From: Polyangium sp. 15x6
GTDB lineage: Bacteria > Myxococcota_A > Polyangia > Polyangiales > Polyangiaceae
Length of the DNA: 32,140 nucleotides
NCBI RefSeq assembly: GCF_029960785.1
Contig: NZ_JASBQE010000125.1
Coordinates: 1 to 32,140 of the forward strand
Direction of reading: 5' to 3'
Position 1 is the first letter of the stretch, and each line of letters starts with the position of its first letter. Below are positions 1 to 12,219 of the stretch, piece after piece. Below the pieces are notes generated by a model, which worked only from the letters and a program-made list of their open reading frames with translations, had not been told where the DNA came from and did not search any database. A program made the translations under genes and the position numbers.

Positions 1-111
1 GCTCTGGTACGGGGTATGCCGAGCCGGCTGGCACGGTTTTCCCGGACCACGTGGCGCGGGATGTATCCGTATGAAATGCACGGTGTTGGGGTCGCGATCG
101 GGGGCTCGTAG
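1..111 (+). CDS. possible C-terminal end of an unidentified plus-strand gene
   Basis: Frame 1 on the plus strand is open from the left edge to TAG at 109-111 and encodes 36 residues including WRGMYPYEMHGVGVAIGG, a more protein-like composition than the overlapping minus frame. It occupies exactly the stretch where B2 loses similarity to B1. It may be the tail of a gene joined to the broken B2. No family was recognised, and 36 codons are too few to be sure. Confidence 0.25.
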   Translation, partial: ALVRGMPSRLARFSRTTWRGMYPYEMHGVGVAIGGS

Positions 112-928
112 ATCCACGGGCTGCTAAGCAAGTGCCCGCCGCACAATCCACGCTGTCGTCGCAGGGCTGTCCCAGGAGGGCTTTGCACGACCCGTTCTCG
201 CACACAGATCCCATTGAGCAAGTTGCGTCATCGGCGCCGCCACAGGGTTTGCAGAGCTTTGTAGTCGGGTCGCAAAGGTGTGAGATGCACTCGACGTCAT
301 CGTTGCAGGGATCGTCGAGGCGGACTCGGCAGTAAGGGCTTCGACAGGCGGAACTCGCGCAATTGGAGTCTGCCTCGCAACTTGAACCGAGTGGGACGGT
401 AGAACCAAGAGGGGAACACTCCCCCATCAGGCTGCACGCCTCGGCCGCGTCGCAGCCAGGGACCTGCAATCCATCGGGCATTCGGGTACAGACTCCTTCC
501 ATCCCTGGATGATTGCACGCATGACAAGGTCCAACGCATACCTCGTTGCAGCAGATGCCGCTAACATCGCATACGGTGCTGTTGCATTGATCACCTGAGG
601 TGCATGGTGCCCCGTCACAGCGAGGTCTGCAGACCTCGTCGGTGCAGTTCAAGCAACCTTTACACTGCGCGGTTTCGTCGCAGAAGCCGCCGCTGCAAGG
701 AGCGCCAACCAATGGCGCGTGACACTGCCCAGCACCCGTAGGCTCATCCAGCGTGCACTCATTGCCATCGTCCTCGCAGGGCATGTGGCCCGTCCCCCCG
801 GAGCCCCCTATCCCACCCGCTTGCGTGTAAGGCAGTGCCTCAAACGGATTGAACGAGCAGCCATCTGCAGCCACGACAATCCCGAAGAAGACGCCACCCA
901 GCGCTAACGACACCCCGTACCGCTTCAT
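1..928 (-). CDS. B2: cysteine-rich exported protein, second copy of the B module gene (3' end disrupted or off-window)
   Basis: Not closed by a stop in the window; the frame stays open from ATG 928 to the left edge (309 codons). The first 25 or so residues (MKRYGVSLALGG, then hydrophobic, then AADGC) align with B1 (3178-2048). A short Gly-rich spacer (GGIGGSGGTG) and about 220 residues of cysteine repeats follow, with the CCNEVCVGPCHAC pattern seen in many myxobacterial surface proteins. The Cys after AADG may be a lipidation site, but -3 Ala and -2 Asp are not a standard lipobox. Identity with B1 is clear up to the codons for GTC at about 128-136 and then stops: the remaining 42 residues are Arg/Ser/Pro-rich with no cysteine, as expected for a non-coding frame. 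The gene is therefore probably truncated by a rearrangement near 127. It follows A2 by 15 bases, so it is likely cotranscribed. Function unknown; presumably surface or periplasmic. Confidence 0.7.
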   Translation of the reverse strand, partial: MKRYGVSLALGGVFFGIVVAADGCSFNPFEALPYTQAGGIGGSGGTGHMPCEDDGNECTLDEPTGAGQCHAPLVGAPCSGGFCDETAQCKGCLNCTDEVCRPRCDGAPCTSGDQCNSTVCDVSGICCNEVCVGPCHACNHPGMEGVCTRMPDGLQVPGCDAAEACSLMGECSPLGSTVPLGSSCEADSNCASSACRSPYCRVRLDDPCNDDVECISHLCDPTTKLCKPCGGADDATCSMGSVCENGSCKALLGQPCDDSVDCAAGTCLAARGSTSPRSRPQHRAFHTDTSRATWSGKTVPAGSAYPVPE

Positions 929-943
929 GGCTCCCCCCTCGCC

Positions 944-1960
944 TCACCACACTCCCTGCACGACGACGCCACCCAGCCCGGGCGCCACCACGAGCGACGC
1001 CCTGGAAACCACCTTCGTGTCCGCAGCCTGCCGCTTCCCCGTCAGCGCGTAGATCAGCGTCGCCGTTCCCACTGCTCCCGCGCCAATGAACGAAAAGAGC
1101 GACGTGTACGCGAGCCCCACCTGCTGCGAAACATTGCGCTCGTAAACTGCTTTGCACGCGTCATAACCCGCGCAACCCACACCGTTGACCGCATCTTGCG
1201 CTCCCGCGTGGGCGATATTCGTCCCGATCGCCGTCCCGATGCCCACCACCACCAGCGCGCCGCTCAGTCCCGCCCCGGCATAAATCAGGCTGCGGCTCCT
1301 CGGCGAGGGCTGCGCCTCTTCCTGTCGGTCCGGGAAGAGCCGCGTCTTTGCCACGGGGGCCATCACGATTCCGACCTGCATCGGTTTCGTGTCCCCCTCT
1401 TCGAGCGTCACCCGCCGTTGCTCCGTGACAAACCCCGGCGCCGAGGCGACGATGTCGTGGCTCCCCGGATCGAGTCTTCGGGGCGCCTCGATTTTACTAT
1501 CCGTTATGGCGACACCATCCACGGCGACCCGGACATTGTCGGACGGGGGCCCCGTCACGCGGAGATGGATCGAGGGGATGCGGGTGTCGAGCGCCTTCAG
1601 GATGTCGGCAGCCTCGGCTTGCGCCGCGACGAATGCCGCATTGCCGTTGGCGGGCAGTTTCAGGACCTCGAGGATGACTTCGCGGGCCTCGACGAGGCGC
1701 CCCAGCTCGCCGTACGCCTTCGCGAGGTCGAGCCCTGTCGTGGGGACGTACATGATCCCGTGGGCTTTCTGAAAGTTTTCGAGGGCGCCAGCGGCGTCGC
1801 CGCGCGCGAGTTTCTCCCGCCCCTCGACCAGCAGCTTCCGGGCGGCATCGCGATCGGCCTGCGAAGGCTGCGCGAGGACCGCGGAGGAGGTGAGGAGCCC
1901 GGCGGCGAGGAGTAGCACGAAGGGAAGGCGCCGGCCGTAGAGCGATGCGCGGTGTCCCAT
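944..1960 (-). CDS. A2: exported TPR/PEGA-domain protein with paired C-terminal TM segments
   Basis: 338 residues from ATG 1960, chosen because an AAGG ribosome-binding site lies just upstream and a clean signal peptide follows (about residues 8-31, ending AVLAQ). Residues 35-125 form a TPR-like helical region (DAAGALENFQKAHGI...LDLAKAYGELG). Residues 130-199 form a PEGA-like beta domain (VAVDGVAI...LDPGSHDIVASAPGF). Two hydrophobic segments follow (about 225-250 and 281-306), with a loop carrying Cys263 and Cys269. It ends LVVAPGLGGVVVQGVW, nearly the same as A1 (3224-4213). Signal peptide, PEGA and TM pair place it in the envelope. PEGA domains are carbohydrate- or surface-associated modules; a specific function is not known. 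It lies between B1 and B2 in one apparent operon, as the second copy of a duplicated A-B unit. Confidence 0.85.
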   Translation of the reverse strand: MGHRASLYGRRLPFVLLLAAGLLTSSAVLAQPSQADRDAARKLLVEGREKLARGDAAGALENFQKAHGIMYVPTTGLDLAKAYGELGRLVEAREVILEVLKLPANGNAAFVAAQAEAADILKALDTRIPSIHLRVTGPPSDNVRVAVDGVAITDSKIEAPRRLDPGSHDIVASAPGFVTEQRRVTLEEGDTKPMQVGIVMAPVAKTRLFPDRQEEAQPSPRSRSLIYAGAGLSGALVVVGIGTAIGTNIAHAGAQDAVNGVGCAGYDACKAVYERNVSQQVGLAYTSLFSFIGAGAVGTATLIYALTGKRQAADTKVVSRASLVVAPGLGGVVVQGVW

Positions 1961-2047
1961 GAAAGACCTTGGGCGTCGAATGAAGTGCGAGGACAAGGGA
2001 AGCGCAGCGGGAACCGGTTTGTGAAGAAAGGGGCGGGGGCTACGCAG

Positions 2048-3178
2048 TCATTGGCAGCGACGGGGGAAGCCGGTGCAGTTGTTGCTGTTGCATTGGCTGC
2101 CGGTGATGCAGTAAGCGCCCTGTGGAAGCAGAAGCTCGCAGACAAAGGTCCCCGTGTTGCACGTGGCACCGGAAACGCAATCACTGTTTGCAGTGCAATC
2201 TGTGCACTTTTGATTCGCGCAGTTAGCATTTGCGCAGTCTGTATGCGCGCTGCAAGTAGCGCCGTTTCCGAGCCGACAAAGCTTGCCTTGGCAAGTGCCG
2301 GACGCACAGTCTCCGTCGATATCGCAAGGCTGTCCCGGGAGCGCCTTGCAGGACCCGCTCTCGCACATCGACCCTATCGGGCACGCCGGAGCACCTGGAT
2401 TCACGCACTGCACACAAAGCTTCGTCGTCGGATCACATAGGTTCGAGAAGCACTCCACGTCGTCGTTGCACGGTTCGCCCGCTTTGGAACGACAGTAGGG
2501 CTTGCGACACGCGCCGCTAGCGCAGTCGCTCCCGTCCGTACTCGTGCAAGTTGCGCCGAGCGCTCCCTTGCCGCCGAGTTTACCGCATGTACCCATCGCA
2601 TTGCACGCGTCGCCGTTGCCATCGCAGCCCATCACCTGCAACCCAACCGGCATCCGCGTGCAAGTCCCCTCCGTCCCGGCCCGGTCGCATGCCTTGCACG
2701 GCCCCACGCATGCTTCGTTGCAGCAGATCTTGGCCGCTTCGTCGCACGTCTCGCTATAGCACTGATCGTCCGTGGAGCATTCGGTCCCGTTACAACGGGG
2801 TTTGCAAAGCTCCGTGGTGCACGTCAAGCAGTTCTGACATAGCCCCATTTCATCACAGAATCCGCCGTTGCAAGAAGTGCCGATTTTTACCGGTGTATTG
2901 CATGCGCATCCGGCGACGGGCTCGTCCAGCGTGCACTCGTATTCATCCTTGGGGCATTGGGCACACATCTCACCCCCGGTTCCGCCATTGCCCCCAATTC
3001 CCCCCGAGCCACCAATCCCACCACCGCCACTTGCCCCGGCACCATTCCCCCCAGCAGCGATATCCTTCGCGTCCTCGTAATCCGGTGTGACAAAAGGATT
3101 GAGCGAGCAGCCGTCCGCCGCGACCACCATCGCTACGAAAACACTCCCGAGCACCAGCGACGCCGTGTACCGCTTCAT
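2048..3178 (-). CDS. B1: cysteine-rich exported protein, first copy of the B module gene
   Basis: 376 residues from ATG 3178; the start is supported by a GAGGGTGA ribosome-binding site and by alignment with B2, which begins MKRY in the same way. Hydrophobic N-terminus (about 5-20) ending AADGC; a lipoprotein is possible, but the lipobox is not canonical. A Gly-rich linker (GGGGIGGSGGIGGNGGTGG) occupies about residues 40-70. The remaining 300 residues are tandem cysteine-rich motifs such as CCNEACVGPCKAC and CDPTTKLCVQC, a pattern shared with Dickkopf-like and EGF-like repeats of myxobacterial surface proteins and likely cross-linked by disulfides. It ends FPRRCQ then TGA. It sits 45 bases downstream of A1 and 87 upstream of A2. 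Function unknown; a surface or periplasmic structural or binding role is inferred. Unlike B2 it is complete. Confidence 0.85.
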   Translation of the reverse strand: MKRYTASLVLGSVFVAMVVAADGCSLNPFVTPDYEDAKDIAAGGNGAGASGGGGIGGSGGIGGNGGTGGEMCAQCPKDEYECTLDEPVAGCACNTPVKIGTSCNGGFCDEMGLCQNCLTCTTELCKPRCNGTECSTDDQCYSETCDEAAKICCNEACVGPCKACDRAGTEGTCTRMPVGLQVMGCDGNGDACNAMGTCGKLGGKGALGATCTSTDGSDCASGACRKPYCRSKAGEPCNDDVECFSNLCDPTTKLCVQCVNPGAPACPIGSMCESGSCKALPGQPCDIDGDCASGTCQGKLCRLGNGATCSAHTDCANANCANQKCTDCTANSDCVSGATCNTGTFVCELLLPQGAYCITGSQCNSNNCTGFPRRCQ

Positions 3179-3223
3179 CCGTTCACCCTCAAGCCAAGGC
3201 AAGGACCGACATCAACGCAAGAC

Positions 3224-4213
3224 CTACCAGGTCCCCTGCACGACGACGCCCCCCAGCGTCGGCGCAACGACGAACGAAGCGCGCGCCGCCTCCTTCGTAT
3301 CCGCAGGCTGCTTCTTCGCCTGGCTCCAGGAGTACAGCGTTACCGCCCCGACCGCACCCGCACCAATGAACGAGACGAGCGATGTCCACGAGAGCGCCTG
3401 CATCGTCGAGGCATGCCCCTCGTAGGCGCTACGACAGTCGGTGCCTCCGCAATCGGTACCCTTCGCCGCATCGAGGGCTCGATCATGCACGACCTTCCCC
3501 CCGATCGCCGTCCCGATTCCCAGAAGCAAGAGCCCCCCACTCACCCCGGCGCCCACATATGTCCACGTCCTGTCCTTCGGCGGCGGTGGCGGCGGCTTCT
3601 TGTTCGCGTCGGGGTCGCCGACCGCACCCCCGCCCACAGCCGTGAGCTTCAGCGGCACCCCGACCTCCGCCCCCGCGGACAGTTCGAGACTCTGACCCGC
3701 CCCCTGAAATCCTTCTTTCCTCGCCTCGAACGAATGCGTCCCCGGCGGTAAGAAAATCGGCCCTGGCAGAAGCTTCTTCTCGATCGACCGCCCATCCACC
3801 AGCACCTCGGCGTCCGCCGGCTCGACCTTCATCGTGACGGTCACGATCTTCGGCTTTGCTTCCTTCAGCAGCGCCTGAGCCGCTGCCACCTCCGCCGGAT
3901 CCGGATTCAGTTCCTCCCGAAGGAAAAACTGCAGGTGCTCCGACCCTGCCAGCGCATCGCCCACCTTCACCTCGGCTCGACCCAGGTTCAGGGCGATCTG
4001 CGGCAACGGCTTGAGCGCAAAAGCCTTCCCGAACGCCGTCCGCGCCTTTTCCCACTGCGCGAAGCCCGCCGCGAGTTGCCCTTCCTTGAAAAGCCGCTTG
4101 ACTTCCGTGTTCACGTCGGGCTGCGGCGATGCCGCAGGTGCCGCCGCAGGTCCCTGCGCAAACGCAGGCACCGTTACGAGCAAGGCCGTCGTGATGAGCG
4201 TGGTCCTCAACAT
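3224..4213 (-). CDS. A1: exported TPR/PEGA-domain protein with paired C-terminal TM segments
   Basis: 329 residues from ATG 4213, preferred over an upstream GTG at 4294 because it opens directly onto a signal peptide (MLRTTLITTALLVTVPAFAQ). TPR-like helices at about 33-120, a PEGA domain at 123-190 (VLVDGRSI...LPPGTHSFEARKEGF), a proline run (KKPPPPPPK, 205-213), and two hydrophobic segments (217-241, 274-296) separated by a loop with Cys255 and Cys260. It ends FVVAPTLGGVVVQGTW. A2 shares this order, the cysteine pair and the tail, so the two are paralogues. It lies 84 bases downstream of kinase 1, same strand, which suggests a functional link such as being an envelope partner or phosphorylation target; this is inference. 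The proline run could be a spacer. Only a weak GGAG lies close to the chosen start. Confidence 0.85.
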   Translation of the reverse strand: MLRTTLITTALLVTVPAFAQGPAAAPAASPQPDVNTEVKRLFKEGQLAAGFAQWEKARTAFGKAFALKPLPQIALNLGRAEVKVGDALAGSEHLQFFLREELNPDPAEVAAAQALLKEAKPKIVTVTMKVEPADAEVLVDGRSIEKKLLPGPIFLPPGTHSFEARKEGFQGAGQSLELSAGAEVGVPLKLTAVGGGAVGDPDANKKPPPPPPKDRTWTYVGAGVSGGLLLLGIGTAIGGKVVHDRALDAAKGTDCGGTDCRSAYEGHASTMQALSWTSLVSFIGAGAVGAVTLYSWSQAKKQPADTKEAARASFVVAPTLGGVVVQGTW

Positions 4214-4297: not shown

Positions 4298-6274
4298 TCA
4301 GCCCGGCGAGCACTTCCTGAACAGCCCGACGCCCGTGCACTTCTGTGCCGGCGCAGCCTTGTTGCCCGTCGTTTTCGTGGCTGGCGCCTTGTACGTAACC
4401 GTCGGAGCAGGCGCTTTCGCGACCGCTGGTGTCGTCGCGGCCGCGACGGGCGCCTGCGGTGTCGGCGTCGGCGCGGGAGCCGGCGGAGCCACCACAGACG
4501 CCGCCTCCGCCGCCGAGCTGCCTGCCGCCGGCGGCACCTCCGGCTGCGCCGTCACCTCCGCCTTCACCGAAGGCCTCGGCAACTCCTGCCCCACCGGCAC
4601 CGCCGCCGCGCTCCTCGCCGCCTCCGACGGCGCTCCTTCCTTCACGCTCGCCGCTCCCTCCCCCGACTCGGTCTTCCCCACATTCACCACGAGCACCGCG
4701 ACCACCCCGATCGCCGCCACCGCCCCGACCCCCATCACCCCGAACAGCACACCCTTCCTGCGCTTCGGCCTCCCCGCCATCATCGCCGGATCCATCATCG
4801 GCATCGGCGGCGCTGGATATCCTCCCGTGCGATGCGCGAGTGCCCCCGCCGCCGACGTCGTCCCCGAGGGATCCATCGTCGGCAGCCGCGGCATGTGCGC
4901 CTCGGTCACCATCTGCGTTTGCCCGTTCGACGCTTGCTCCGGCACCACGCCTTCCAGCGCCATGTACGACTGCCGGTGTGCCGCGAGTGCCTGCTGCATC
5001 TCCTCCTTCCACGCGGGCGCCGGAGATGCGACCGGCAGATTCGGCTGCAAGAGTTGGGTGCCCGTCGACGCGTCTTCCCCGCGGGCTGCTCGAGGCGCGC
5101 TCGGTCGCATGGCCATGAGCATCCGCCCTTGCAGCGGCAGCGTCGCTGCGAGGTCGCTCTCGTCGTCGTCCTCCGGCGTCGAACCCATCCTCGCGCGCTG
5201 CATTGCGCCCGGCAGCGGCATGGTCGCGTCCATCGGTGTGAACGTCGGCGTGCGCTGCGGACTCGTTGCCTGCGGGATCGGCTGCGAAATCGGCTGCGGG
5301 ATCGCCTGCGGGATCGGCTGCTCCACACCCGTGAACGTCGGCTTGCGTTGCGGACCCGTCGCCTGCGGGATCGGCTGATCCACGCCGGTGAACGTCGGCT
5401 TGCGTGTCATCGGTCGCGGCATCCCTGCGATGCCGAGGAGCGCGCCTGCAAGCTCGTCCGTGCTCGGGAACCGCGCGTCTCGCTTCGCCGCCGTGCAACG
5501 CGCCACGACCTCGTCGAGCTCCGGCGGCACGTCGCGCACCTTGCTCGAAGGCGGCGGCACGGGCGTGATGAGGATGTGCCGGATGACATCCTGCACCGAA
5601 CCCACGAAGGGACGCCCTCCCGTGAGCATCTCGTACAGCACGATCCCGAGCGACCAGATGTCCGTGCGGTGGTCGAGATCCTTTCGCATCCCCACCTGCT
5701 CGGGGCTCATGTACGCGGGCGACCCCACGGCCGTGCCCGTCTGCGTCGCGATGCTGTCCACCGAGTCGAGGTTCTTGCACACGCCGAAGTCGAGGATCTT
5801 CGCGACGAACGTGTCCTCGGGCATGCCCTCCTCGCGGTGGAGGAAGATGTTCGCCGGCTTGAGATCACGATGGATGACCTGCGCGGTGTGCGCGACGGCG
5901 AGCCCACTCGCGACCTCTCCCGCGATGCGGGCCGCGAGCGCGGGCTCGATGCGCCGCTTCTCCTTCAGCAGATCGCCGAGCGTCTGCCCGTGCAGGAGCT
6001 CGAGCACGAGGAACGGCTCTCCTTGCGGCGTCTCGCCCACGTCCAAGATCTGGACGATGTTGCGATGTCGCAGCTTCCCGCACGCCCGCGCCTCGCGCTG
6101 CAGGCGCTGGCGCAGGTCGTTCGTCAGGTGCTCCTTCTGCTGCGGCAAGATCAGCTTGAGCGCGACCCTGCGGTGCGTCGCGTGGTCGAACGCCGCCCAC
6201 ACGGCGCCCATCGCGCCCTTGCCGATCTCCTGTTCGAGCCGGTACTTGCCGCCGAGGAGGTCGCCCGATTTCAT
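4298..6274 (-). CDS. kinase 1: membrane Hanks-type serine/threonine protein kinase
   Basis: 658 residues. Cytoplasmic kinase domain at about 11-275: Gly-rich loop GKGAMG (18-23), ATP-anchoring Lys40 in VALKL, helix-C Glu61, catalytic loop HRDLKPAN (Asp137, Lys139, Asn142), DFG (162-164), SPAYMSPEQ activation segment, and DIWSLG. All catalytic residues are present, so it should be active. A long Pro/Thr/Gln-rich linker (about 285-500) holds repeated units of the type KPTFTGV-QPIPQ and the motifs ATMPL and ATLPL. One TM segment lies at about 506-531, followed by a Ala/Pro/Thr-rich exterior region of about 125 residues ending with two cysteines. No PASTA or other sensor domain is visible. The start (ATG 6274, MKSGDLLGGKYRL) matches kinase 2. 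It lies 179 bases downstream of kinase 2 and just upstream of A1, so it probably heads or belongs to the A/B operon. Confidence 0.95.
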   Translation of the reverse strand: MKSGDLLGGKYRLEQEIGKGAMGAVWAAFDHATHRRVALKLILPQQKEHLTNDLRQRLQREARACGKLRHRNIVQILDVGETPQGEPFLVLELLHGQTLGDLLKEKRRIEPALAARIAGEVASGLAVAHTAQVIHRDLKPANIFLHREEGMPEDTFVAKILDFGVCKNLDSVDSIATQTGTAVGSPAYMSPEQVGMRKDLDHRTDIWSLGIVLYEMLTGGRPFVGSVQDVIRHILITPVPPPSSKVRDVPPELDEVVARCTAAKRDARFPSTDELAGALLGIAGMPRPMTRKPTFTGVDQPIPQATGPQRKPTFTGVEQPIPQAIPQPISQPIPQATSPQRTPTFTPMDATMPLPGAMQRARMGSTPEDDDESDLAATLPLQGRMLMAMRPSAPRAARGEDASTGTQLLQPNLPVASPAPAWKEEMQQALAAHRQSYMALEGVVPEQASNGQTQMVTEAHMPRLPTMDPSGTTSAAGALAHRTGGYPAPPMPMMDPAMMAGRPKRRKGVLFGVMGVGAVAAIGVVAVLVVNVGKTESGEGAASVKEGAPSEAARSAAAVPVGQELPRPSVKAEVTAQPEVPPAAGSSAAEAASVVAPPAPAPTPTPQAPVAAATTPAVAKAPAPTVTYKAPATKTTGNKAAPAQKCTGVGLFRKCSPG

Positions 6275-7976: not shown

Positions 7977-8309
7977 TCAGGGCGCCACCTGGATGTCCTG
8001 GATCTGCCCGCTCTGGTCCAACGTCACCATGGCACTGTGAAGCTGGGTGGCACCGCGATAGACCTCGAGCGTGTAGGTTCCTGGCGGAACACCTTGGAAC
8101 GAGTATGTCCCGTCATTGGCGGTGCTCGTGACTTTGACCCACTCCGGCTTGGGCTGCGATGGTATGAGCTTGACAATCAGCTCCGCGACGCCTTGACCGT
8201 TGCCTTGGCTCGCGATCCGGCCACGCAGCGTGAGATCTTCGGCGGCCGCGCTCGACGTCACCAGGAGCACGAAGAGCGCGGCGGCGATCCGCCTGCGAGT
8301 TCCAATCAT
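7977..8309 (-). CDS. secreted carboxypeptidase-regulatory-like (beta-sandwich) domain protein
   Basis: 110 residues from ATG 8309 (AAGGG upstream). A signal peptide (about 1-23, RRRIAAALFVLLVTSSAAAE) precedes a single beta-sandwich domain with GRIASQGNGQGVAELIVKL, then DGTYSFQGVPPGTYTLEVY, the signature of the carboxypeptidase D regulatory-like / SpaA-like prealbumin fold. It should be periplasmic or extracellular; this fold usually acts as a structural or binding module, not an enzyme. Another possible start, ATG 8384, overlaps the stop of the upstream gene as TGATG and would allow translational coupling, but it would put 25 hydrophilic residues before the signal peptide. The upstream neighbour is a two-TM protein, probably cotranscribed. 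Confidence 0.75.
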   Translation of the reverse strand: MIGTRRRIAAALFVLLVTSSAAAEDLTLRGRIASQGNGQGVAELIVKLIPSQPKPEWVKVTSTANDGTYSFQGVPPGTYTLEVYRGATQLHSAMVTLDQSGQIQDIQVAP

Positions 8310-8383
8310 GACTCTGCCCTTCTGTTTCATGTGCCGCTGCTTCGGGCAATCACGAGGAGGTCGCTCGAACGGCGCTCGGGTCA

Positions 8384-8887
8384 TCAATTTGCTGGCCTCG
8401 CAGGGAAATCAATCAAGACCTTCGGGAGCTCGTACTCGCCGTTGCGAAAATTCTTGGGATCGATGAACTCGGTGTTCACCAGCGTCGCGTCCTTGATGAA
8501 CAGCACCTTGTACTCTCCTCGGTCTCTGTCCAGACTCGGCACCACGAGTCTGAACTTGCTTCCCCCTCGAATCGTCTCGGTATTGACCACGGCGTAGACG
8601 TCGATGGAGGTATTGTCGTATTGCACCGCGCCCTGGATTCGCAACGGTCTCGAGAGCTCTGCGTTCCGCCATATGGGGTAGATGAGCGGAACGAAGCCGA
8701 GCGCGAACAGCGTCAGCGCCGGGATGTTGGTCTTGAAGGTCCCTACCGGGGTCTGCACTTCGGCGACCTGCTTCGTCTCGCGATCGATATATATTTTCTG
8801 CTTGTAAAGCATCACGATGCCGCCGATCACCATGATGGCGCCGGAGAAGCTCGACAGGTAGAACAGCGGCACGATTGCGGGGTCCAT
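8384..8887 (-). CDS. two-TM hypothetical protein with a C-terminal extracytoplasmic domain
   Basis: 167 residues from ATG 8887, preceded by GGAGAG at good spacing; the longer frame upstream is low-complexity and lacks support. TM1 at about 6-25 (LFYLSSFSGAIMVIGGIVMLY), a short loop with KQKIYIDRETKQ, TM2 at about 45-63 (IPALTLFALGFVPLIYPIW), then a domain of about 100 residues with beta-rich character (IQGAVQYDNTSIDVYAVV, FRLVVPSLDRDRGEYKVLF). No family recognised. It is the first gene of a short minus-strand pair with the carboxypeptidase-regulatory-like gene; both being envelope proteins suggests they act together. Confidence 0.7.
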   Translation of the reverse strand: MDPAIVPLFYLSSFSGAIMVIGGIVMLYKQKIYIDRETKQVAEVQTPVGTFKTNIPALTLFALGFVPLIYPIWRNAELSRPLRIQGAVQYDNTSIDVYAVVNTETIRGGSKFRLVVPSLDRDRGEYKVLFIKDATLVNTEFIDPKNFRNGEYELPKVLIDFPARPAN

Positions 8888-9330
8888 CGGTTCTCTCCAG
8901 GCCGAGGGGCTGGTCGTCACGGCCGACTCGGCGCAGCACCGCTTTCGTGCAGCTTCCGTTCCAGTGGGCGCCGAGACGATCGTTGCGGCTCGGCAGTGGA
9001 GCCACGTTTCGAGAACGAACCTTGCCGCTCGCCAAGCATGCCCTGGGACCACCCGTCGAGTACGTCCAGCATCCTCTGGAGAGGACAATCCCCGTGGCCT
9101 CGTCGGTGCGCTGCGTGACCACGCAACACCTTGCGCACCTCGGCAGCGATGGGCGCGTGCCCCTCGACGTGCACGCCCATCGCTGCCGAGCGCGAGCGTC
9201 TGGAGTCACGTCCGCCGGAGCAAGCTGAGCGTATCGAACTGCGCGCGCTCCTCGACGCTTTCGTTGTCGCGGCCATCCATGTAGCTTCCCCGCAGACCAG
9301 CCAGGGGGGACGCTGCTGCACGAGGATGGA
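8888..9330. other. divergent intergenic region containing a long inverted repeat
   Basis: 443 bases between a minus-strand gene start (8887) and a plus-strand gene start (9331). Open frames here are shadows with Arg/Ser-biased composition. The only structure noted is a perfect 15-base inverted repeat listed separately. Promoters for both flanking genes should lie here, but none was clear enough to call. Confidence 0.5.
9141..9188. repeat. perfect 15-bp inverted repeat in a divergent promoter region
   Basis: Left arm 9141-9155 (CGGCAGCGATGGGCG) and right arm 9174-9188 are exact reverse complements, separated by 18 bases. The arms lie 143 bases upstream of the kelch gene and about 250 upstream of the minus-strand gene. 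There is no T-run on either side. It could be a large operator or an RNA hairpin in a leader; a terminator is less likely because both flanking genes point away. Confidence 0.6.
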
Positions 9331-12219
9331 ATGCGAACACGAATGACGAATGCACGTTGGATGAGGCCCTGGTCCGGGATCGCGCTTTGCGCGCTCGCCG
9401 CGGCCTGCGACGAAGGCGGCTCGCTACCGCAGGTGAACGAGGTTTCGGGCGGGGGCGTCGAAGCAGAGGCCGCGCCGCTCCGCGCGAGGCTCGAGGCGCG
9501 GTTTCCCGAGCAGGCCCGGGAGGTGCTCTCGGCCGACCCGTTCGAGGCCGGCGAGGACGGTTATCGCCGGTCGCCGCCGAGGTCTCTCGGGACATGGGAC
9601 GATTTGCTGGTCACGCTGCCGCGCGAAGGCGAAGGCGCGGTGCACTTTCGCACGCACGACGGCTTCGAGATCGCGGTGCGCGAGGAGGGGCTCACGGGCC
9701 ACGCATTCGATGTCGACGCGGCCGTGGCATATCCGCGCCATGGCGGCGCGTCGTTGTGGGTGCGAAGCGCGGTCGGGGTGGAGGAATGGCTCGCGCTCGA
9801 GGCCGACCACGCCCAGGAGGGCGAGCCGCTCGCGGTTTGGCACGTGGACGGGGCGGCTGCGCGGCAGGATGCGTCGGGAATTCACTTTTTCGATGAGCGG
9901 GGCCGCGCGCGTGTACACGTCACGGCGCCGCGCGCTTTCGCGGAGGGCGGAACGCCGGTTTCCGTGCGCCTCTCGCTCGACGGCGCGACGATCGCGCTCT
10001 ACCTCGAAGGCAAAGCCCCGCCGGGCGCCGCGCTCTTCGTGGATCCGGCGTGGACCACCGTCGCGCCGATGAATACCCCGCGCGATAGCCACGCGGCCAC
10101 CTTGCTCACGAATGGCAAGGTCCTCGTCACCAGCGGTTATACGACCGGCAACCTGCCCACCAAGTTCGCGGAGCTCTACGATCCTGCGACGAACCTCTGG
10201 AGCTTCACGGGATCCATGATCGCGGCGCGTCTCGGCCACACGTCGACGAGGCTCGCCGATGGCCGGGTGCTCATCGCCGGCGGTCTCTGGGAGGTCAGCC
10301 CCGCGGGCGGCGAGATCTACAATCCCGCGACGGGCACGTTTTCCGCGACACCGTCGATGAAAATGGACAGAATGACGCACCGTGCGGCGCTCCTCGGCGA
10401 CGGCCGCGTCCTCGTCGTCGGCGGCTATTACCTCATGAACCAGAACGCCACCGAGATCTACGACCCGGTCGCGAACACCTGGACGACGGGACCCTCGATG
10501 GTCAACTCGCGCGCGTCGCTTGCGCTCGTCACGCTGGCGAACGGCAAGGTCCTCGCCATTGGCGGCTCCGGCACGGGCACGCAGAACGCGGAGCTCTACG
10601 ATCCCACCACGAATGCCTGGAGCTCCGCGGGCATGCTCAACGTACCGCATTCTTTCAACGATGCCGTGCGCCTCACGAATGGAAATGCGATCACCTGCGG
10701 CGACTCCAGTTATGCCGCGTTCTGCGAGCTGTACAATCCGGCCACCAATTCGTGGACACTCACGGGCTCCATGGCCGTCAAACGCGCCGCGCCGACCATG
10801 GTGCTTCTGCCAGGCGGCAAGGTCCTCGTCGCGGGCGGCGGCCTCGGAGCCGCAGGCCCGGCCAGCGCCGAGCTTTACGATCCGAACACCGGCGCGTGGA
10901 GCACGACCGCCTCGATGAACGTCGGCCGGAGCTACCACACGGCGACCTTGTTGCAAAGCGGAGGCGTGCTCGTCGCCGGCGGAAGTCCGCCCAATACGAG
11001 CTACACCACGAGCGCCGAAATCTACACCCTGGTGACCCCCACCCCGTGCGCTGCCGCGGGAAATTGTCCGAACGGGCTCTGCGTCGACGGTTATTGCTGT
11101 GATACGTCCTGCGGCGGCGGCGTCGCCGGCGATTGCCAGGCATGCAACGTCCCGGGCGTGCAGGGAATTTGCTCCCCGGTCGCGGCCGGCACGACGTGTC
11201 GGCCGGCCGCGTCGGCATGTGATGCCCCCGAGACCTGCAATGGCAGCGCCACCACGTGTCCGCCGGATGCAGCTCAGCCAGACGGGGCAGCCTGCAATGA
11301 CGGGAATGCCTGCACGCAGACCGATACGTGCCAGGCCGGCGCGTGCACGGGCGCGACGCCGGTGGTCTGCACCGCGCTCGACAGCTGCCATCAGCCCGGT
11401 ACGTGCAATCCCGCCACCGGCGTATGCAATAACCCCGCCAAACTCGACGGCTCCACGTGCGACGATGGCAATGCGTGCTCGCAGACGGATACGTGCCAGG
11501 CCGGCGCATGCGTTGGCACCAATGCCGTGATTTGCCAGGCGGCATCTCCGTGCCATGTGCCAGGCACGTGCAACCCGATCACGGGCGTGTGCACGAATCC
11601 TGCCAAACCGGATGGCAGCGCCTGCGACGATGGCAATGCGTGCACGCAGACGGACGCGTGCGCGAGCGGGGTCTGCACGGGAATGGCGCCCATTTCGTGC
11701 GAGCCGCTCGACGAATGCCATCTTCCGGGCTCGTGCGCTCCCGCGAGCGGCATGTGCTCGAATCCTGCCAAGCCGGACGGCACGCCCTGCACGGGCGGGA
11801 TGTGCGTCGCCGGCGTCTGCATGAATGACCCGACGGGTGCAGGCGGCGCGGGCGGCGCCGGCGGTACCGGTGGCAATGGAGGAACCGGCGGCTCCGGTGG
11901 CAATGGAGGAACCGGCGGCTCCGGTGGCAATGGAGGAGCTGGCGGCTCCGGCGGCTCCGGTGGCAATGGAGGAACCGGCGGCTCCGGCGGCCTGGGAGGA
12001 TCGGGCGGCGGCGCAGGAGGATCGGCTGGCTCCGGCGGCTCCGACGTTACGTCGTCATCGAGCATCACGGCCTCGTCGGGCGGCGGCGGCGATTTGATTC
12101 AGGAGGAGGGCGCCTGCGGATGCCGTCAGGTCGGCGATGGCCCCCGCACGGCATGGCCGCTCGCCGGATTGCTGCTGCTCCTACGACCGCTGCGACGCCG
12201 TCGCGTGAGCCGAGGCTAG
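9331..12219 (+). CDS. kelch-repeat and cysteine-rich surface protein with MYXO-CTERM-like anchor
   Basis: 962 residues; ATG 9331 has GAGGATGG just upstream. N-terminal hydrophobic segment (about 14-26) ending ALAAAC, a probable but imperfect lipobox. Residues 50-235 are an unassigned region ending at a VDPAW motif. Residues 240-570 hold about six kelch-type blades (NGKVLV-SGGY, AELYDPATN-W), forming a beta-propeller. Residues 573-825 are cysteine-rich repeats (CCDTSCGGGVAGDCQAC; three copies of DDGNACTQTDTC-like units). A Gly-rich linker (about 836-905) is encoded by a minisatellite. The C-terminus has CGCR, a hydrophobic stretch (WPLAGLLLLL) and RPLRRRRVSRG, the tripartite form of MYXO-CTERM signals processed in myxobacteria. 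It is likely displayed on the outer surface. Kelch propellers usually bind proteins or sugars; no enzymatic residues were identified. Confidence 0.9.
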   Translation: MRTRMTNARWMRPWSGIALCALAAACDEGGSLPQVNEVSGGGVEAEAAPLRARLEARFPEQAREVLSADPFEAGEDGYRRSPPRSLGTWDDLLVTLPREGEGAVHFRTHDGFEIAVREEGLTGHAFDVDAAVAYPRHGGASLWVRSAVGVEEWLALEADHAQEGEPLAVWHVDGAAARQDASGIHFFDERGRARVHVTAPRAFAEGGTPVSVRLSLDGATIALYLEGKAPPGAALFVDPAWTTVAPMNTPRDSHAATLLTNGKVLVTSGYTTGNLPTKFAELYDPATNLWSFTGSMIAARLGHTSTRLADGRVLIAGGLWEVSPAGGEIYNPATGTFSATPSMKMDRMTHRAALLGDGRVLVVGGYYLMNQNATEIYDPVANTWTTGPSMVNSRASLALVTLANGKVLAIGGSGTGTQNAELYDPTTNAWSSAGMLNVPHSFNDAVRLTNGNAITCGDSSYAAFCELYNPATNSWTLTGSMAVKRAAPTMVLLPGGKVLVAGGGLGAAGPASAELYDPNTGAWSTTASMNVGRSYHTATLLQSGGVLVAGGSPPNTSYTTSAEIYTLVTPTPCAAAGNCPNGLCVDGYCCDTSCGGGVAGDCQACNVPGVQGICSPVAAGTTCRPAASACDAPETCNGSATTCPPDAAQPDGAACNDGNACTQTDTCQAGACTGATPVVCTALDSCHQPGTCNPATGVCNNPAKLDGSTCDDGNACSQTDTCQAGACVGTNAVICQAASPCHVPGTCNPITGVCTNPAKPDGSACDDGNACTQTDACASGVCTGMAPISCEPLDECHLPGSCAPASGMCSNPAKPDGTPCTGGMCVAGVCMNDPTGAGGAGGAGGTGGNGGTGGSGGNGGTGGSGGNGGAGGSGGSGGNGGTGGSGGLGGSGGGAGGSAGSGGSDVTSSSSITASSGGGGDLIQEEGACGCRQVGDGPRTAWPLAGLLLLLRPLRRRRVSRG
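11881..12000 (+). repeat. 27-base coding minisatellite for the Gly-rich linker
   Basis: The unit GGAACCGGCGGCTCCGGTGG plus CAATGGA (27 bases) occurs at 11881-11907 and 11908-11934 without change. A 36-base variant with a 9-base duplication follows (11935-11970), then a diverged copy (11971-12000). It encodes GTGGSGGNG repeats. Near-identity at silent positions indicates recent slippage or unequal exchange, so linker length may vary between strains. Confidence 0.85.

Follow-up and report, generated by a model that had tools for sequence, protein, structure and literature searches.

In mycobacteria, the lipoprotein GlnH and the membrane protein GlnX activate the Ser/Thr kinase PknG; in the part of the study drawn on here, the kinase is encoded with the membrane protein and the lipoprotein, the lipoprotein senses outside the cell and the membrane protein is the proposed relay to the kinase (PMC6069109). 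This is the closest tested logic for the locus described here, which lies in Polyangium sp. 15x6 on the entire contig C28 (NZ_JASBQE010000125.1, 32,140 nucleotides, hereafter the window); the genome comprises 13.4 Mb in 275 contigs. On the minus strand two kinase genes, K1 and K2, are followed by A1, B1, A2 and the 5' part of B2. The repeated A1-B1-A2-B2 order behind the kinases had been pointed out in an initial annotation of this DNA, and the gene coordinates as well as the similarity of A to A and of B to B bore it out. Tentatively, and with a little less than even confidence, we read A and B as an exchangeable extracytoplasmic sensor cassette that would feed kinase signalling.

To our knowledge, the stimuli of such Hanks kinases are rarely known. 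In the mechanism that we infer, covering topology, binding of A to B, kinase contact, direction of signalling and a GTPase link, A would be exported and held in the inner membrane by two helices, with its tetratricopeptide repeat (TPR) and PEGA-like domains in the periplasm as an adaptor. B would be a cysteine-rich lipoprotein stiffened by disulfides and held near A, where it would bind a partner or ligand. Binding at B would be passed via A to the membrane-spanning K1 and K2, the tail of K2 being extracytoplasmic, and perhaps also to a Rag-like GTPase and a partner protein, whose genes lie just downstream in this locus type. The kinase and GTPase parts would be constant and the A-B cassette swapped between species.

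Gene order and architecture of the A and B proteins

Gene order, domains and, by motif, export signals could be read directly from the sequence (Table 1). The gaps between K2, A1, B1, A2 and B2 were 84, 45, 87 and 15 bases, respectively. A1 and A2 were 36% identical across 321 columns (2e-40), and B1 and B2 aligned at 48% identity (5e-88). Both kinases scored above the Pkinase cut-off of 31.7 (K1 179.8 bits, K2 170 bits) and are of the Hanks type, with membrane helices predicted near residues 430-448 of K1 and 512-530 of K2. Four locus types were compared in the genus (main, second, C98-type and C219-type), in addition to a C236-type GTPase locus; the window's own genome is G000 in trees and comparisons.

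Table 1. Features of the locus in the window and on the putatively neighbouring contig C5.
Feature	Coordinates	Strand	Basis
K1: Hanks Ser/Thr kinase, C-terminal membrane helix	6454-7818	-	Pkinase 8.5e-53
K2: Hanks Ser/Thr kinase, membrane helix, Pro/Ala-rich tail, cysteine pair at end	4298-6274	-	Pkinase 8.8e-50
A1: exported TPR-PEGA-like protein, two membrane helices, cysteine pair, aromatic C-terminus	3224-4213	-	alignment, AlphaFold2 model
B1: cysteine-rich predicted lipoprotein	2048-3178	-	lipobox-like export signal, home-made rule
A2: second A protein, separate lineage from A1	944-1960	-	tree
B2: 5' part, cysteine-rich lipoprotein gene cut by insertion sequence	127-928	-	3' part on contig C5 ~131-361
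Insertion sequence end (DDE transposase with DUF772)	1-126	no strand	repeat copies at contig ends
Rag-like GTPase gene and partner gene	contig C5 (L044) 374-3214	convergent with B2	Gtr1_RagA match, partner model

Both A proteins carried an export signal, as judged by eye. Alignment and a structure model, made only for A1 of the two, revealed TPR helices, a PEGA-like sandwich, a cysteine pair lying between two hydrophobic helices, and a like C-terminus. The AlphaFold2 model of A1 had a mean pLDDT (predicted local distance difference test) of 79.9. The TPR block (residues 34-122, pLDDT of approx. 94-98) and the sandwich (residues 124-189) were modelled confidently; the pair of long helices that followed and the beta hairpin at the C-terminus had lower confidence. 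Residues 34-122 had the TPR fold, aligning with the designed TPR protein 1na3 at a Z score of 14.3 (root mean square deviation 1.8, 85 residues), and most of the remaining leading matches were TPR proteins; the Pfam TPR families all scored below cut-off in the A proteins. The gathering cut-off of PEGA (PF08308, 20.8 bits) was not reached by A1 (12.7) or A2 (15.1) and we therefore termed both PEGA-like; two paralogues from the same genome, one of C98 and one of C219 type, passed it with 34.6 and 36 bits. From the shared architecture that had been proposed initially, the signal, the TPR region, the cysteine pair between helices and the C-terminus were recovered, with PEGA short of the Pfam cut-off.

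The cysteine pair (C255 and C260 in A1 numbering) and G327, two before the last residue, were at least 90% conserved in a 39-sequence alignment. Of the 41 A proteins in a class-wide sample (see below), 31 had at least two loop-region cysteines. Redox sensing by the pair would be one conceivable role, the side of the membrane on which it lies being uncertain. All 41 ended in F, W or Y, compared to 19/258 controls, and so did 72/77 A proteins from loci fetched via A, the GTPase partner or B, compared to 37/464 controls; the profile used for finding A includes the C-terminus and may favour an aromatic ending. A Bam-type signal for the outer membrane would be one conceivable meaning of this ending.

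In a 14-sequence alignment of B proteins 17 columns were invariant, 15 of them cysteine. Against Myxo_Cys_RPT (TIGR04201, cut-off 25 bits) B1 reached 17 bits in a single stretch and the B2 part gave no match. In the genus, a cysteine-rich open reading frame (ORF) followed A in 22/22 cases across the main, second, C98-type and C219-type loci; the other A genes of the window's genome had no such ORF adjoining. B1 had eight matches in the order, seven of which were B genes beside an A gene. The eighth (L118 8103-9512, G130) was a B-like cysteine-rich gene that follows a kinase gene and has no neighbouring A.

The protein behind A differed between genera: cysteine-rich repeats in genus g1, a protein of approx. 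550 residues in g47, and a lipoprotein in G070 (L111 6637-7674) that matched Laminin_G_3 (4.7e-7), a lectin-like fold. At L061 (contig C47, 3181-11399) an A-like gene was followed directly by the gene of a 2386-residue protein with 309 cysteines, the first part of which held MopE-type and weak Dickkopf-like matches.

Replacement of the cassette between species

As far as sequence comparison goes, the cassette has been replaced at this locus, and its absence from two species, the conserved neighbourhood and the break in B2 are evident from the same comparisons. Four of six genomes in the genus contained an A-B-A-B cassette at this place and two had none. The same neighbours enclose the cassette in G152, G149 and G150, and in G148 and G151 the GTPase partner follows K2 after 128 and 108 bases, respectively, with nothing between. 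Identity to the window in G152, G149 and G150, in this order, was 88, 86 and 87% for K1, 83, 78 and 78% for K2, 88, 85 and 85% for the partner and 93, 93 and 92% for the GTPase. For the cassette it was 82, 34 and 44% (A1), 63, 37 and 36% (B1), 70, 44 and 44% (A2) and 64, 37 and 37% (B2). K1 was 85-88% identical across G152, G149, G150 and G148. At three other loci G150 was closest to the window's genome (median 91%, 25 genes), G149, G148 and G151 were all at 87% (25, 23 and 24 genes), and G152 was most distant (80%, 23 genes). We concluded that the closer cassette-bearing species have the more divergent cassettes.

Divergence at silent sites (dS, NG86) of A and B against G149 and G150 was 1.07 or more and thus saturated, B2 against G149 giving no value. 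It was 0.23-0.40 for K1, the K2 kinase domain, the GTPase and the partner, and 0.51-0.63 for the K2 tail. Positive selection behind the A/B divergence was unsupported: where computable, the NG86 dN/dS ratio was below 1 with silent sites saturated, a crude estimate given that YN00 failed for several pairs. On these grounds, allele replacement or old allelic lines would fit the divergence better than positive selection. At the C98 and C219 loci A and B were mostly better conserved, with the C219 B2 in two classes (70% vs 46-49%). An extra A fragment was found in G149 between K2 and A1 (L095 8369-9388), without the usual C-terminus; it is perhaps the remnant of a replaced copy.

Trees were quick searches with support from the Shimodaira-Hasegawa-like approximate likelihood ratio test (SH-aLRT) only. 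The four proteins in the A2 slot formed one clade (98, starred), to which two A proteins from genus g47 were sister (100, starred); by this tree the A2 lineage is older than the genus. Three lineages occupied the A1 slot. One united G000 and G152 (100, starred), and in the other two the A1 proteins of G149 and G150 were sister to A proteins of the second GTPase locus, from G148 (99, starred) and from G152 (99, starred), respectively. The tandem duplication of a two-gene module that had been put forward initially is too simple for A1 and A2, as the two fall in separate lineages. A simple recent duplication of one A-B unit in the window's lineage could draw on the gene order occurring twice and on B1 and B2 being most alike within G152, G149 and G150. 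We hold it to be very improbable indeed, since A2 grouped with its counterparts in three further species and with two A proteins from a different genus, and A1 was nearer the C98-type A group (88, unstarred). For A it was rejected by the tree, and duplication would survive for B only, as recent duplication or gene conversion.

The B genes paired within the genome in G149 and G150 (98 each, starred). In the B tree set, B1 and B2 of one genome were 83% identical in G152, 79% in G149, 60% in G150 and 59% in the window's genome, whose B genes were 61-64% identical to those of G152. Homogenisation of the B copies was therefore not apparent in the window's genome, where they were no closer to each other than to G152. 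In G150 both B genes joined B of the G152 second locus (99, starred), like A1 of G150, and from these groupings A1 and B seem to travel together in G150. For G149 no joint travel was seen in the B tree, which warned of long branches for the second-locus genes and the G149 genes.

A related reading takes A-B as a polymorphic surface recognition module, plugged in as differing alleles, or not at all, into a constant core of kinases, GTPase and longin-type partner; alleles would move between two GTPase loci in the genus, and the two B copies would be homogenised. We regard this as unlikely. If it were true, the module would be a bacterial receptor with exchangeable outer parts signalling through Hanks kinases and a Rag-like GTPase, and would serve in telling self, prey or surface apart.

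B2 had been annotated as a 309-codon gene ending at position 1, which was not the case, as it is cut by an insertion sequence. Reading toward the contig end, B2 homology was lost at approx. codon 267. Window positions 1-124 had five more copies in the genome at 100%, each at most about 5 bases from a contig end, and two further copies at 76-77%, one of which, at 77%, adjoined a transposase ORF (DUF772 1.4e-20, DDE_Tnp_1 8.8e-9). The flanks of the copies part ways directly after CTG[CT]TA. The 3' remainder of B2 (approx. 77 codons) was located where contig C5 begins, preceded by the opposite end of an element of this kind, so C28 and C5 are most likely neighbouring contigs with the insertion sequence inside B2. 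The sequence ahead of this remainder also recurs, partly at contig starts or ends. In the sister genome G152 B2 was open.

The A family and its kinase and GTPase neighbours

A profile of A matched at E 1e-25 in at least 101 of 116 genomes of the class, and many matches were near full profile length; at most 18 candidates per genome were scored and the counts are lower bounds. In a class-wide sample chosen by A, a Hanks kinase gene was directly upstream of 17/38 A genes compared to 4/201 control genes (Fisher 3e-12), and a lipoprotein gene came next after A in 17/38 compared to 17/213 controls (Fisher 1e-7). The sample comprised 40 stretches with 41 A genes, hand-picked from ranked matches for genome spread before neighbours were seen, and some hits near contig ends were passed over. 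Among the loci fetched via A, the GTPase partner or B, leaving out L132, which overlaps L111, a kinase was directly upstream of 30/81 A genes (controls 10/453) and a lipoprotein-like ORF followed A in 59/77 (controls 45/453). Lipoproteins were called by a home-made lipobox rule and control genes by a simple GC-based caller. At 40% identity 62 of 77 A genes chained into one cluster; the linkage counts are thus not phylogenetically independent, and the Fisher values serve as a guide only. A PP2C-type phosphatase gene was seen near A genes in G165 (L110 7314-8093).

As judged from these matches, the A family is widespread in the class, far beyond cysteine-rich B, and what is special here is the A-B pairing at genus level together with the replacement at this locus. 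The kinase coupling suggested initially stood as a tendency of the A family, with over half of the sampled A genes (21/38) lacking a kinase directly upstream. Co-occurrence of A and B likewise held for the four locus types of the genus and for seven of eight B1 matches, but A is far commoner than cysteine-rich B. That A and B might occur mostly apart from each other and from kinases, which the initial annotation had named as speaking against its proposal, was in part what we found.

Beyond B2 on C5 lie two convergent genes, then two more kinases. The product of one convergent gene matched Gtr1_RagA (PF04670) at 6e-6 and 26.2 bits, over the gathering cut-off of 22, and was classed as a Rag-like GTPase; its N-terminus is a strongly hydrophobic stretch, which we read as a putative membrane anchor. 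The partner protein had no Pfam match and no useful sequence match. It was modelled at a pLDDT of 81.7, and its best structural alignments were mostly to longin-domain proteins, with Z scores all below the safe level for C9orf72-SMCR8 (6.7), GATOR1 (6.6) and FLCN-FNIP2 (6.3); TagF aligned over 211 residues, also below Z 8. By Foldseek nothing was found at E 0.001 or better, unrelated chains came top and the best longin-type match had E 0.059. According to the model, the partner possibly carries a longin fold. The partner was found at 29 places in 15/183 genomes of the order, and 23 of these had an A gene within the stretch read or next to it, the window's own A genes being on the adjoining contig.

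Several observations weigh against a sensor cassette feeding the kinases. A weak point is the A cysteine pair, which would face the cytoplasm if the signal peptide is cleaved and would be ill-suited to a disulfide. At the C219-type locus the nearest kinase was approx. 5 kb off, with none adjacent. Both kinases, the GTPase and the partner are kept without A-B in G148 and G151, so this core can do without A-B; and since A and its lipoprotein were kept at 78-90% between species at the C236-type locus, replacement is not general to GTPase loci. Six of the 29 partner loci had no nearby A gene, and three distant partner loci outside the family had neither A nor kinase. The best alignment of the partner, to a Loki roadblock-longin protein (Z 7.0 over 138 residues), was under the aligner's safe range.

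The C219-type loci, the two species with kinases but no A-B and the sampled A genes without a kinase directly upstream would suit an independent envelope pair, an adhesin or a lipoprotein carrier or anchor without a tie to kinases. Nearness would then reflect kinase gene abundance; the window's genome has at least 150 Hanks kinase-domain matches, a lower bound from scoring 150 of 339 candidates. We consider an independent pair unlikely, but worth keeping in view: the frequency of kinases directly upstream compared to controls argues against it, as do the loci combining kinase, A and the GTPase pair that recur across several genera.

The label of an output, given to A-B initially, was not supported. 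As an output, A would be phosphorylated or switched by the kinases, and the duplicated A-B would remodel or anchor the envelope. The position of A directly behind a kinase in 17/38 sampled cases would agree with this, and PEGA is counted among peptidoglycan-binding domains in the consulted portion of one account (PMC7159879). However, TPR, PEGA and B are predicted to be extracytoplasmic and only the short loop between the A helices could meet a kinase domain. The cassette is also far more variable than the kinases, which fits an input more readily than an unchanging output, and an input role is easier to read for A and B because both carry export signals. An output is therefore improbable in our view.

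With a sensor cassette as the favoured reading, a membrane partner that occurs across the class, ends in an aromatic residue and often has a kinase gene before it or a lipoprotein gene after it becomes a candidate for the missing kinase input, and the replaced cassette supplies natural allele pairs for testing an input role. If true, a connection with the Rag-like GTPase and its longin-type partner would join two signalling currencies in bacteria.

Upstream of the kinases, the ORFs at 7977-8324 and 8384-8899 were set aside, their best local matches in the G152, G149 and G150 stretches covering at most 65 residues. Positions 9331-12219, divergent from the kinase cluster, encode an exported protein that combines a Kelch propeller, a cysteine-rich part and Gly-rich repeats.

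Comparison with known systems

No description of the A-B or GTPase-partner arrangement was found in the titles and abstract openings of the literature searched, mostly non-subscription papers. Compared to PknG-GlnX-GlnH, GlnH is solute-binding and GlnX has predicted four-helix-bundle sensor domains, according to the portion of the study used (PMC6069109). A solute-binding lipoprotein was not recognised here, as neither B1 nor B2 matched any Pfam family up to an E of 1; B is cysteine-rich, A combines TPR and PEGA-like domains with a helix pair, and the kinases have a membrane helix of their own. In the TagQ-TagR-PpkA-TagF pathway of type VI secretion an outer-membrane and a periplasmic protein act upstream of a membrane Hanks kinase, in the part of the source covered (PMC10482370). 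The structural match of the partner to TagF was middling (Z 6.8) and a Rag-like GTPase is present here; secretion genes were not searched for.

Neighbourhoods of group 1 Rup GTPases, as set out in the section consulted, combine a small GTPase with a signalling output module and uncharacterised proteins linked to the membrane, as here; the usual output there is a diguanylate cyclase/phosphodiesterase or a histidine kinase, whereas here it is Hanks kinases and A-B cassettes (PMC4316618). TraA of myxobacteria is a polymorphic cell-surface protein for which allele transfer and recombination are discussed in the part of the paper seen (PMC6372800). B, without a Pfam match, is likened to TraA by description only, and the replacement here is between species, not strains. 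We concluded that the locus represents a variant of envelope sensing linked to kinases, unusual in its exchangeable cassette.

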